Source: Thermoanaerobaculum sp. (GTDB lineage Bacteria > Acidobacteriota > Thermoanaerobaculia > Thermoanaerobaculales > Thermoanaerobaculaceae). From it: a DNA stretch of 55,433 nt. The stretch is taken from contig JANXCP010000003.1 of assembly GCA_025060245.1 (NCBI GenBank), forward strand, positions 1 to 55,433, read 5' to 3'. The notes under the pieces are model-generated. The model was not told where the DNA came from and did no database searches. It saw only the letters and a list, made by a program, of their open reading frames with translations. The position numbers and the translations under genes are program-made. Shown here in pieces: positions 26,820-38,916 of this stretch (within the stretch, counting starts at the first letter, position 1; each line of letters opens with the position of its first letter).

Positions 26820-26895
26820 TGGCTGGGGCGGCAGGACTCGAACCTGCACATGCGGGATCCAAAGTCCCGTGGCTTACCAATTTGCCGACGCCCCA
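26820..26895 (-). tRNA. tRNA-Gln (anticodon UUG), CCA encoded
   Basis: TGGGGCG...CGGGA-CTTTGGA-TCCCG...GCAGG-TTCGAGT-CCTGC-CGCCCCA-GCCA: full cloverleaf with paired acceptor, anticodon and T stems. Confidence 0.95.
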
Positions 26896-31558: not shown

Positions 31559-33367
31559 CTACGCCGGGCGTCGCCGACGCAAGTAGCGGTAATCGGGGAT
31601 CCCGTATTCCTTCAACTTGGCGATAAGGGCCCCCCGGGAGATGCCGAGAATGCGTGCACCCTTGGACTGGTTCCCGCGAACCTTTTGCATGACCCGATCA
31701 ATGACCAGCTGCTCAACCCGCGGCACCACCTCTTTTAGGTTGTCCGAGAGCAGTATCTCCGCTCCTTCTGCGGCGCTCCTCTGATTGGTCCCCTTGACGG
31801 CTTGGGCGTCACAACGGACCATGTCCCCGTCGGCGGTGGCAGCCACCAGGCGCCGAAGTTCCCCCACGAGCTCCGCCAATTGCCCCGGGAACGTGCGAGC
31901 GAGAAGCGCGTTGAGGCACTCCAGGGTAATGCCGCGGACCGATTTACCCTGCTCCTCCGCCACCCGGTGCAGCAGGGAAGCGATGATGAGCGGAAGATCC
32001 TCTCGGCGCTCTTCCAGCCTCGGAACACGCAGCATACGCGTGGAGAAGGCCATGAACAAGGCCGACGAGAGCTTGCCCTGTTGCACTAACGCCAATGGGT
32101 CCTCTCCACAGGTAATAACCCAGCGAATGGTGGAGGAGGAGAGGGCCTGTTGCCGCTCCATGCGCACCACACCCACCAGCTCCATCTGGATGGGCTCCGG
32201 GAGACGCTCGGCGTTACGAACCACCAACATTCCTCCCCGCGCCTCGCCCACCTTTCCACCCATCGCTCCGGTAAAGGTGGGCTTGCCTGAGGGACCGAAG
32301 AGCTCCTGCCGCAAGTGCTCCAAAGGCGCATCCTTGCCCTCTAGGATGACCACGCGCCTTCCCGCCACTGGCCCCAGGGTGGCCAAGATCCGCGCCGTTT
32401 CAGTGCGCCCTGAACCCTCGGCACCGCAAATGAGCACCGGCTCGGTTCCCCGCGCCGCCTGCAGGAGCCCGTCCCGCAAAACCTGGACCGCCTGCGAGGT
32501 ACCCGGCAGGAGCATTTCCAAACGGTGCCGGGCCTCCAGTTCCCAGTTGGAAAAGCTCGCATCGGTTCGCTCCACCTGCTCCCAGAAAAGCCCCAGAAGC
32601 CGGGCTGCCTCAGCCAGCAACGCCACGCCCTCATCACCCAACGCGCCCACCGGTCGCGCCAAAAGCAGGGCCACCAAAGAGCCGGTGGGAGTCCGCACCG
32701 CCACAAACGCCGTCCCCCCATCCTTCGACCCATTCTGCACCACGTACCGGCCGGGTAAGGCCAGTTCCCGCAAAATGGCCGGCGCCACCACCGGTAACTC
32801 ACCGCTCCAGTGGGATGCCAACACCACCCCCTCCACTGCCGGCCCTCCCCCTTCCCGGGGAATGACCAAAGCAAACTCCGCCTCCCGCACCGCCTCGTGC
32901 AACGTTGCCACCAACTGGTGGGCGCGGTCTGGGCGAGTCTGGGAGAAAAGCTCAAAGAGCCGAATCCGGGCCTGGGTATACCCGCCCGGCTCGGGCCTCA
33001 CCAATAGCGACTCCGCTGAAGGAGCTGGCGCGGGGGGCGGAACGGCGGCTGGCTTTTCTTCAACCAAGCTCACCTCGCTCCCCACCACACCGCGGAACAC
33101 CAGGGTGACCGTACCGAGGCGTAGGCGATCCCCAGGGTTGAGAACCCCCCGAGAGCGCCGCTCACCGTTCAAGACCACCGTCTGCCGCTCGGCGGTGGTG
33201 AAGGTGAAGGTCTCACCGCTGCGTTGAATGACCAAGTGGCGGTCAGCCACACCCGGTCCTCCCACCACCACGTCGTTGGTAGGAGCAGAGCCCACAGCGA
33301 TGCGCGTCTTCTGCAGACGGTACGTGAGCGTAGCTCCGTTTTCGGATTCAACGGAAAGTAAGAGCAT
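31559..33367 (-). CDS. FHA domain - degenerate sigma54-activator-type AAA - Fis HTH regulator
   Basis: N-terminal FHA-like region (VGSAPTNDVVVGGPGVADRHLVIQ), AAA-like GAEGSGRTETAR...FTGAMGGKVGEARGGMLVVRNAERLP, C-terminal KVRGNQSKGARILGISRGALIAKLKEYGI. ATG 33367 preceded by GGAGGG. Confidence 0.85.
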   Translation of the reverse strand: MLLLSVESENGATLTYRLQKTRIAVGSAPTNDVVVGGPGVADRHLVIQRSGETFTFTTAERQTVVLNGERRSRGVLNPGDRLRLGTVTLVFRGVVGSEVSLVEEKPAAVPPPAPAPSAESLLVRPEPGGYTQARIRLFELFSQTRPDRAHQLVATLHEAVREAEFALVIPREGGGPAVEGVVLASHWSGELPVVAPAILRELALPGRYVVQNGSKDGGTAFVAVRTPTGSLVALLLARPVGALGDEGVALLAEAARLLGLFWEQVERTDASFSNWELEARHRLEMLLPGTSQAVQVLRDGLLQAARGTEPVLICGAEGSGRTETARILATLGPVAGRRVVILEGKDAPLEHLRQELFGPSGKPTFTGAMGGKVGEARGGMLVVRNAERLPEPIQMELVGVVRMERQQALSSSTIRWVITCGEDPLALVQQGKLSSALFMAFSTRMLRVPRLEERREDLPLIIASLLHRVAEEQGKSVRGITLECLNALLARTFPGQLAELVGELRRLVAATADGDMVRCDAQAVKGTNQRSAAEGAEILLSDNLKEVVPRVEQLVIDRVMQKVRGNQSKGARILGISRGALIAKLKEYGIPDYRYLRRRRPA

Positions 33368-36452: not shown

Positions 36453-37867
36453 GCCGGCCGACGCACACGCACCCGGTAGGTGAGGGTTGCCTGTCCTTGG
36501 GCGGGCACGGGCACAGAAAAGAGCACGGAAAACGCCGAGAGCTTGCGGTATGGAAGGGAATAGCTGAGCATCTCCCACTCGCCGGCGATGGTTTCCTCCA
36601 CCTCCACCACCACCGCTTCGTCTTTGTGGTTGCGCAAGCGGATTTCAAAGGCACTCTCCACGGTCTTATCAAACGTGCGGAAATCCGTTTGCACCCGTTC
36701 CGCCACCACGTCAAAGGCCGTCCCCACTTCCAGCTTCACCTGCTCGTCCTTGGGCGTGTGCTGGATACGGTCTTCCCCCATGAACTGCTCAGTGCCACGT
36801 CGATCCCGTTGGTACACGCGCACCACTCCCGCCGGCAGAGGCAAGCCTAGGTTATTGGCTGCCGTGTTAGCCAGCTCCAAACGCACCCGCACCGGCTCCC
36901 GCCGCAGCTCCTGGCGCCCCCAGAAGTTACCCGGAAAACCTTGGACCACCAATCGCTTCACCACCCTCACCCCATGAGCCGTCAAAAGAGAAACCTGCTT
37001 GTCCTGCCGGTCCAGGATGGTGGTGGGGCGGTCCAAGGTGTAGAGGTGGTACTCCCCCAGGGCTTCCTCTTCCATGCTCCGCGCTTCCTTGGCTGCCGCC
37101 ATCACCACGGGAACCCGTTCCGGTTGCGGGCGGACCACATGGACCTCGCCCGCCACCAACTGCAAGGTGGCCTCAGGGTAGGAAGCGCCGGAGGTGTTGG
37201 ACAGGGTGACCCATCCGGTCAGGCTTCCCTGCTCCCCCTTTTGCTCAAGACTTAACACGTAATCCGCTTGCCACTTGAGCCCCTCAGTGAGGTAGGTAGT
37301 TTGCACATTCCGCTTGCCGCCGCTCAGGCTCCTCAGCAACCAAACGAGGGTGGGACGATCGCGCAAGGTGGGTGGGACGTTGTCAAAAGCCAGCTCACGG
37401 TAGGCCGGGTTAGCCACGATACGATCGCCGATACGCCAAACCGTGCCGTTTTCCAACGAAAGCAAGGTGGCGCGAACCTCCTGCCGCACCGTCCCCGGGC
37501 CATCCAGCCGCGGCTCCTCGCGCACCAACGTCACCTCTTTACCCAAGAACTTCGCCAAAAGGGTCTGGGGCGAGAGGAGATCGTACTCGTAGTTTTGCTC
37601 CAAGACCTCCGTTTGGTCAGCCGTGAACGCCACCGTTTGTGGCATCACTTGCGCCGCAATGTCACGGTACTCCAATCGCACCAGCCCCTGGGGCAAATCC
37701 ACCCAGCGGGTGTCGCGCACCAGCGCGCGGCCCACGTGGTACACCGTCAGAGACACCTTTTGCCCACCGGCAGCGGAAGAAACCACCACCGGCGGGTTTC
37801 CCTGTGCCCAAAGGACGCCAGCCATTCCCATCATGACGGCAAACACCGTTTCCCAACCCCTGCTCAT
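36449..37867 (-). CDS. DUF4139-like exported protein
   Basis: Signal peptide MSRGWETVFAVMMGMAGVLWAQG; beta-rich body. Start refined to 37867, ATGA overlap with selD stop. Confidence 0.7.
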   Translation of the reverse strand: MSRGWETVFAVMMGMAGVLWAQGNPPVVVSSAAGGQKVSLTVYHVGRALVRDTRWVDLPQGLVRLEYRDIAAQVMPQTVAFTADQTEVLEQNYEYDLLSPQTLLAKFLGKEVTLVREEPRLDGPGTVRQEVRATLLSLENGTVWRIGDRIVANPAYRELAFDNVPPTLRDRPTLVWLLRSLSGGKRNVQTTYLTEGLKWQADYVLSLEQKGEQGSLTGWVTLSNTSGASYPEATLQLVAGEVHVVRPQPERVPVVMAAAKEARSMEEEALGEYHLYTLDRPTTILDRQDKQVSLLTAHGVRVVKRLVVQGFPGNFWGRQELRREPVRVRLELANTAANNLGLPLPAGVVRVYQRDRRGTEQFMGEDRIQHTPKDEQVKLEVGTAFDVVAERVQTDFRTFDKTVESAFEIRLRNHKDEAVVVEVEETIAGEWEMLSYSLPYRKLSAFSVLFSVPVPAQGQATLTYRVRVRRPA

Positions 37868-38916
37868 AGCTCCCTCCCTCGGCCGGGGACCAAGTGCAGG
37901 ATTCCCGGCGGTCCCTCCAGCACCCGGCCCACCACTGAAGCTTCGGCCAGCTCGGCCTGCACCCTTGACAGCTGCTCTGCCGGCACCGCCGCCAGCAAAC
38001 CTCCTGAGGTTTGCGGATCGCACAGCAGCACCACCACCTCTTCGGCTTGTTCCTTCAGTCCCTGAACGTGCTCCGCCACCCACTGGCGGTTGGCCAACAA
38101 GCCCCCGGGGATGGCCCCCGCCTTCGCAGCCGCCTGTGCCCCCGGCAAGAACGGGACCGCCTCTGCCCAAAGCTCCAGGGCCACCTGGGAGGCCACAGCC
38201 ATCTCCCGCGCGTGACCCAACAGGCCAAAACCGGTCACGTCTGTCAGGGCATGGGCTACCCGGCGCAGCACCAGGCTGGCCCGCCGGTTAGAGGTCTTCA
38301 TGCTCGCCACCAGCGGTGGGAGCAGCTCTGCCGCCAGCCCCCCCCGCTTGAGCCACGTGGCCAGTACCCCGGTTCCCAGGGGCTTGGTGAGCAGCAGCAC
38401 ATCCCCGGGTTGGGCCCCCGCCTTGGTCAGGAAACGCTGAGGGTTCACCGTGCCCGTCACGGCCAGCCCGTAGGTGAGCTCTGGGCTTTTCACCGTGTGT
38501 CCGCCCAGCAAGGCCACCCCTTCCTGGGCGAGGGCCGCCGCGGCGCCGCGGAAGATCTGGCCCAACACGCCTAGGGGCAAGACCTCTTTGGGAAAACCGC
38601 ACACCGCTAAGGCCGAAAGCGGATCTGCGCCCATGGCGTACAAATCGGACAGAGCGTTCATCGCGGCAATAAAGCCAAAATCGGCGGGCTCATCCACAAT
38701 GGGGGTGAAAAAATCCACCGTTTGCACGAGGGCCAGATCTGGCCCCACCTGGATGATCCCCGCATCGTCCAAAGCATCGGCGCCCAACAGCACCCGGCGG
38801 TCGCGGGGAAATGGCACACCCGATAACGCTGCATGCAGGTCCGCCGGACCTAGTTTGGAGGCTCAACCGGCACAGCTCACCAGCTCGGTGAGCTTGATGA
38901 TTTCCTCACGCGTCAT
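37864..38916 (-). CDS. selD: Selenide, water dikinase containing selenocysteine (in-frame UGA at 38863-38865)
   Basis: Reading through UGA gives MTREEIIKLTELVSCAG-U-ASKLGPADLHAALSGVPFPRDRRVLLGADALDDAGII..., colinear with SelD; body has TVDFFTPIVDEPADFG, LLGGHTVKSPELTYGLAVTG, DVTGFGLLGHAREM, CDPQTSGGLL. ORF track splits it at the UGA. Confidence 0.93.
38837..38851 (-). promoter_or_regulatory. Candidate bacterial SECIS element of selD
   Basis: Minus strand UGA-GCCUCCAAACU-[AGGUCC-GGC-GGACCU]: perfect 6-bp stem, 3-nt loop starting 18 nt after the UGA. Confidence 0.75.

Follow-up and report, generated by a model that had tools for sequence, protein, structure and literature searches.

The gene at positions 31559-33367 of the window (the whole stretch of 55,433 nucleotides of Thermoanaerobaculum sp. 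DNA analysed here) encodes a regulator that, judging by its sequence, lacks the residues needed to hydrolyse ATP and to contact sigma54 while its AAA+ fold and its helix-turn-helix (HTH) remain. This protein is one stage of a graded loss of a motor, not an isolated odd protein: within one orthologous family, whose hosts keep rpoN where sampled, some members have lost the contact loop and kept the ATPase, others have a dead ATPase in a retained fold, and in others the AAA+ domain is gone. The window protein is probably a sigma54-independent DNA-binding regulator descended from a sigma54 enhancer-binding protein (EBP), its AAA+ domain serving as a scaffold and its action being exerted at sigma70-type promoters.

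The open reading frame lies on the minus strand, as do all the features given below, and runs from the ATG at 33367 to the stop codon at 31559-31561, encoding 602 amino acids (the coordinates of the gene include the stop codon). The position of the start Met is common to the orthologs, which supports the annotated start. An earlier sequence-only reading had proposed an FHA - AAA - Fis layout with an intact HTH, and this was borne out by Pfam, where all matches are above cut-off: FHA at residues 24-85 (31.9 bits), Sigma54_activat/Sigma54_activ_2 at 289-451, AAA_lid_14 at 453-520 and HTH_8 at 549-588 (36.7 bits). A GAF domain missed by Pfam can be added between the FHA and AAA+ domains, at about residues 130-260 (32588-32980). 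The AlphaFold model of the middle domain alone (residues 128-288) has a pLDDT of 88.1, and its best Foldseek matches in the PDB, Aquifex NLH1 and CodY among them, are GAF domains. The Pfam domains and these GAF matches together thus give an FHA-GAF-AAA-Fis layout. The full-length AlphaFold model, built with 38 orthologs (mean pLDDT 84.5), shows an FHA beta domain, an alpha/beta domain, an AAA+ core with pLDDT mostly >88 and a Fis-like end, and a fold search with it matched ZraR, NtrX, NtrC1, FleQ and VpsR (7v2b).

The AAA+ large subdomain (residues 286-451; 32015-32512) retains its fold and is catalytically degenerate. Its match to Sigma54_activat (PF00158) scores 45.6 bits against a cut-off of 20.2, and PF14532 and PF25601 also pass their cut-offs, yet the residues on which the activity of this family depends are missing; a protein may match Sigma54_activat without being a sigma54 activator. 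In the alignment to canonical EBPs, R321 stands at the Walker A Lys (GAEGSGRTE, 32399-32425), R384-N385 at the Walker B Asp-Glu (GGMLVVRNAERLP, 32198-32236) and G421 at the sensor I Asn. Both arginine fingers are lost (S434 and A440), the segment at 32021-32074 reading KLSSALFMAFSTRMLRVP where FREDLYYRL is expected, and A498 replaces the sensor II Arg in the AAA+ lid (residues 452-520; 31808-32014). In the L1 loop (32264-32305), ELFGPSGKPTFTGA replaces ELFGHEKGAFTGA, with GAFTGA reading PTFTGA plus one inserted residue. When the protein was aligned to 11 EBPs of the same genome, no canonical Walker residues could be placed elsewhere in it. The dead Walker motifs and arginine-finger segment described in the sequence-only reading are therefore confirmed by alignment, the losses of both sensors being new, and its conclusion also stands: the protein appears to be a pseudo-ATPase, for which the usual action on sigma54 is not expected. 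Its reading of PTFTGA holds as regards the loss of GAFTGA, which is absent from 47/47 orthologs examined, but the partial FTGA is peculiar to the window copy: it occurs in 0/46 other orthologs, genus mates included, and two sister species read FTGT and FTGS.

A model built on the 60 C-terminal residues was used to search for orthologs and detected a single-copy gene in 52 of the 148 genomes of the class (Thermoanaerobaculum lineage, Acidobacteriota). In a sample of the phylum, the same model matched 16 of 396 genomes, every one within this class. A scan of contigs with the single window protein returned only one close relative (L045, from an uncultured Thermoanaerobaculum) and two distant EBPs. 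The dead ATPase is common to all 29 tallied members of the groups f1 (which includes the window protein), f2 and f16: 29/29 lack the Walker B Asp, the two arginine fingers and the sensor II Arg, and 28/29 lack the Walker A Lys, with Arg in its place. The lone exception, L010, keeps the Lys and lacks the remaining catalytic residues. Since orthologs in many genera carry the same changes, chance or sequencing error can be ruled out as the cause of the degeneration. The members of f5 and f10 keep GK[TSD], FRxDLYxRL-like segments and NxRE, with EE or NE at Walker B and no GAFTGA; Asp is found at the first Walker B position in no ortholog of the family. Finally, the f11 members (L121, L122 and L124, from three genera) combine FHA, GAF and HTH in a single open reading frame of 359-403 aa from which the AAA domain is absent. 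Pfam finds only FHA and HTH_8 in L122, plus one sub-threshold FHA-like match.

The phylogeny splits the family into two clades, f5+f10+f11 and f1+f2+f16, each fully supported; they are joined by a long branch, and the position of the root is uncertain. It follows from this topology that f1/f2/f16 lost the catalytic residues and f11 the entire AAA domain in two events on separate branches. The motor would have been lost in stages, beginning with the sigma54-contact loop; one clade would later have lost its catalytic residues and another its entire AAA domain. That the contact loop was lost ahead of both other losses is the simplest reading, although it is not proven. The AAA parts of the f1/f2 and f5/f10/f11 clades are as different from each other as those of unrelated EBPs, and the kinship of these clades rests on the HTH, the layout, the single copy and common neighbours.

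The best conserved part of the protein is the Fis-type HTH (residues 546-590; 31598-31732), in which 18 positions are invariant across 30 orthologs. Identity between the two clades reaches 60-64% in the HTH, against 31-33% in the FHA domain and 25-26% in the AAA domain. As a control, the window protein was compared with unrelated EBPs, giving 20-31% (about 25%) in the AAA domain and mostly 20-38% in the HTH. The AAA identity between clades is thus at the level of unrelated EBPs, so that the DNA-binding end is the part that has been held constant. In close pairs, dN/dS is 0.07-0.13 over the AAA domain and <=0.19 in the HTH. Values of about 0.1 imply that the protein is under purifying selection and that the pseudo-ATPase is constrained, not decaying. 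One could argue for a gene heading for loss from the f1 genomes that have no ortholog (G003, G007, G010, G013 and G016), several of which are incomplete assemblies. Nevertheless, intact single-copy open reading frames in 52 genomes, the low dN/dS and the near-invariance of the HTH make this scenario highly improbable, and plain decay was rejected on the dN/dS values.

The FHA domain (residues 1-92; 33092-33367) is recognized by Pfam and its strands are present in the AlphaFold model. Its pThr-binding Arg is nevertheless absent at both possible positions in 41/41 tallied orthologs, the window protein likewise lacking it, and is replaced by Ala or Ser; the Ser of the SxxH motif is replaced in 39/41 and is missing from the window protein too, while the His is retained in all. 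The FHA domain of this family is therefore not expected to read phosphopeptides, so that the phospho-reading role proposed in the sequence-only reading is not supported. The loss is specific to this family, as the paralog L069, from the same order, carries a canonical FHA motif and intact AAA motifs. L069 is one of three EBP paralogs of the order (with L073 and L075) that have the same FHA-GAF-AAA-Fis domain order as the window protein. Unlike it, they have intact Walker A/B motifs, arginine fingers and sensors, with GxATG for GAFTGA, and their identity to the window protein is about 25% in the AAA domain and 31-38% in the HTH. The replacement of GAFTGA by GxATG in a protein with otherwise intact ATPase motifs was seen in L069, L071, L072, L073, L075, L076 and L039, a set that includes these FHA-GAF-AAA-Fis paralogs. 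A mildly degenerate EBP was also noticed in the window genome (L041, G000:C131:28532-29005), with LVLDRV at Walker B, GAFTDA in L1, ALVG at sensor I, and intact Walker A and arginine fingers.

The host is a 2.35 Mb draft genome that encodes one rpoN, about ten Ser/Thr kinases above cut-off and about 11 other EBP-like genes. As the host keeps rpoN, and so do nine sampled relatives (f11 among them), sigma54 itself has not been lost, and rpoN loss can be ruled out as the cause of the loss of the motor. The 350 bases upstream of 45 orthologs contain no strict -24/-12 site, and sigma70-like TTGAC-N-TA sites precede several f2 members. The search for operator dyads in the same regions yielded no convincing shared palindrome; the few enriched dyads (CTCGA-N11-TCGAG in f5) stem from close relatives.

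Several precedents bear on the way in which such a protein could act, since EBPs that lack GAFTGA and act at sigma70 promoters are already known (PMC10274813, PMC12421884). The NtrC proteins of Caulobacter crescentus and Rhodobacter capsulatus resemble the family described here in combining an EBP layout with a missing L1/GAFTGA loop, and they act at sigma70 promoters. They differ from it in having a receiver domain and functional ATP sites, in place of the FHA-GAF input, the missing catalytic residues and the branch without AAA domain found here. A missing GAFTGA does not by itself prove independence from sigma54, because the GAFTGA-less Caulobacter NtrC needs its residues for ATP binding and hydrolysis, and some of its mutants influence sigma54 genes (PMC10274813, PMC12421884). 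The Vibrio cholerae VpsR also lacks GAFTGA, acts at sigma70 promoters and does not need ATP (PMC10274813). Its structure is among the fold matches of the window model; VpsR has an N-terminal receiver-like domain and c-di-GMP as its ligand, where the window protein has FHA-GAF. An LFRS motif, which we take to mark c-di-GMP binding of the FleQ type, is not apparent before the AAA domain of the window protein; we mention it as a lead only. GAFTGA-less EBPs that act with sigma70 are thus known as single cases, but a family with intermediates up to the loss of the whole AAA domain was not found in the open-access literature searched. Such a family offers a natural series in which to follow what remains of AAA+ function after the motor is lost and how control may shift from sigma54 to sigma70.

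In the mechanism that we favor for the window protein, the Fis HTH would bind a fixed operator in dimeric or higher oligomeric form, as its near-invariance suggests. The folded AAA+ domain would neither hydrolyse ATP nor contact sigma54 and would serve in the window lineage as a scaffold for oligomerisation or packing. Signals would enter by way of the GAF domain, with a possible contribution from a non-phospho FHA surface. The output would probably be exerted at sigma70 promoters, by analogy with VpsR and the Caulobacter and Rhodobacter NtrC, as repression or activation through occupancy or contact with RNA polymerase.

There are two rival scenarios. One possibility is that dead AAA+ subunits join mixed rings, or that the HTH occupies the enhancers of an active EBP, so that the protein dampens sigma54 transcription as a dominant-negative partner. 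The retained AAA+ fold, its purifying selection and the presence of rpoN with about 11 other EBPs in the genome would all be congruent with it, but mixed rings cannot be a function shared with f11, which has no AAA domain, and the HTH is distinct from those of other EBPs, making this scenario quite improbable. Alternatively, the degenerate pocket could switch DNA binding by taking up ATP, GTP or a cyclic dinucleotide that it does not hydrolyse. The P-loop glycines G315 and G320 are invariant in the f1/f2/f16 tally, the Arg replacing Lys is a similar residue, and in the R. capsulatus NtrC, ATP must be bound but need not be hydrolysed (PMC10274813). Yet f1/f2/f16 have lost Walker B, the sensors and the arginine fingers, and the absence of the pocket from f11 makes nucleotide sensing unlikely as an essential role; as an explanation for the window protein we regard it as unlikely too.

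In the f1 locus, cytidine deaminase / isocitrate dehydrogenase genes stand on one side of the regulator gene and SDR / DusB genes on the other, none of them an obvious partner. The f2, f5 and f11 copies are convergent to the adjoining genes for exosortase H (XrtH, TIGR04177) and an XrtH-associated membrane protein (NF041730), both above cut-off. XrtH is present in 47/52 genomes with the regulator gene and in 54/96 without it (Fisher p 1.4e-5, kinship ignored), and both genes are within a few kb of each other in 25/47 genomes. These observations do no more than suggest a link between the regulator and exosortase H. A regulator dedicated to XrtH surface-protein sorting is a tentative idea that concerns the targets and is compatible with the sigma54-independent regulator favored above. 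Against it, XrtH is frequent in genomes without the regulator, it occupies a separate locus in f1, the window genome included, and no shared upstream motif was found. Moreover, the wider class has XrtH next to smc and pyr genes with no copy of this regulator (gene names by sequence reading). This XrtH-SMC arrangement is old in the class, so the adjacency may be an inherited position, which is a full alternative. It is more doubtful still that the family is a class-specific regulator of XrtH sorting made from a former sigma54 activator, whose motor was dismantled stepwise, from the contact loop through the catalytic residues to the entire domain, with operator recognition unchanged and the FHA domain turned into a non-phospho interaction surface.

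Other genes recur near the regulator. The XrtH cluster of f2 includes a Ser/Thr kinase (family F3) that was assigned by sequence reading alone, and a DUF4388 (PF14332) gene lies directly upstream of the regulator on the same strand in most f2 genomes (e.g. L057 6510-7949). A histidine kinase gene follows the regulator in most f5 and f10 loci and less clearly in f11. In f5, the regulator gene is divergent to one for a PAS-LuxR type regulator, which also lies nearby in two f1 genomes (L068 and L112-L128 loci).

Elsewhere in the window, a selenophosphate synthetase (SelD)-like gene (37864-38910, minus strand), recognized by eye from its N-terminal active-site motif SCAG-U-ASKLGP, contains an in-frame TGA at 38863-38865. 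Because this TGA falls within the motif, the SelD of this genome is probably a selenoprotein itself. A tRNA-Gln (ttg) gene at 26820-26895 (minus strand) adjoins a ribose-phosphate pyrophosphokinase-like gene.
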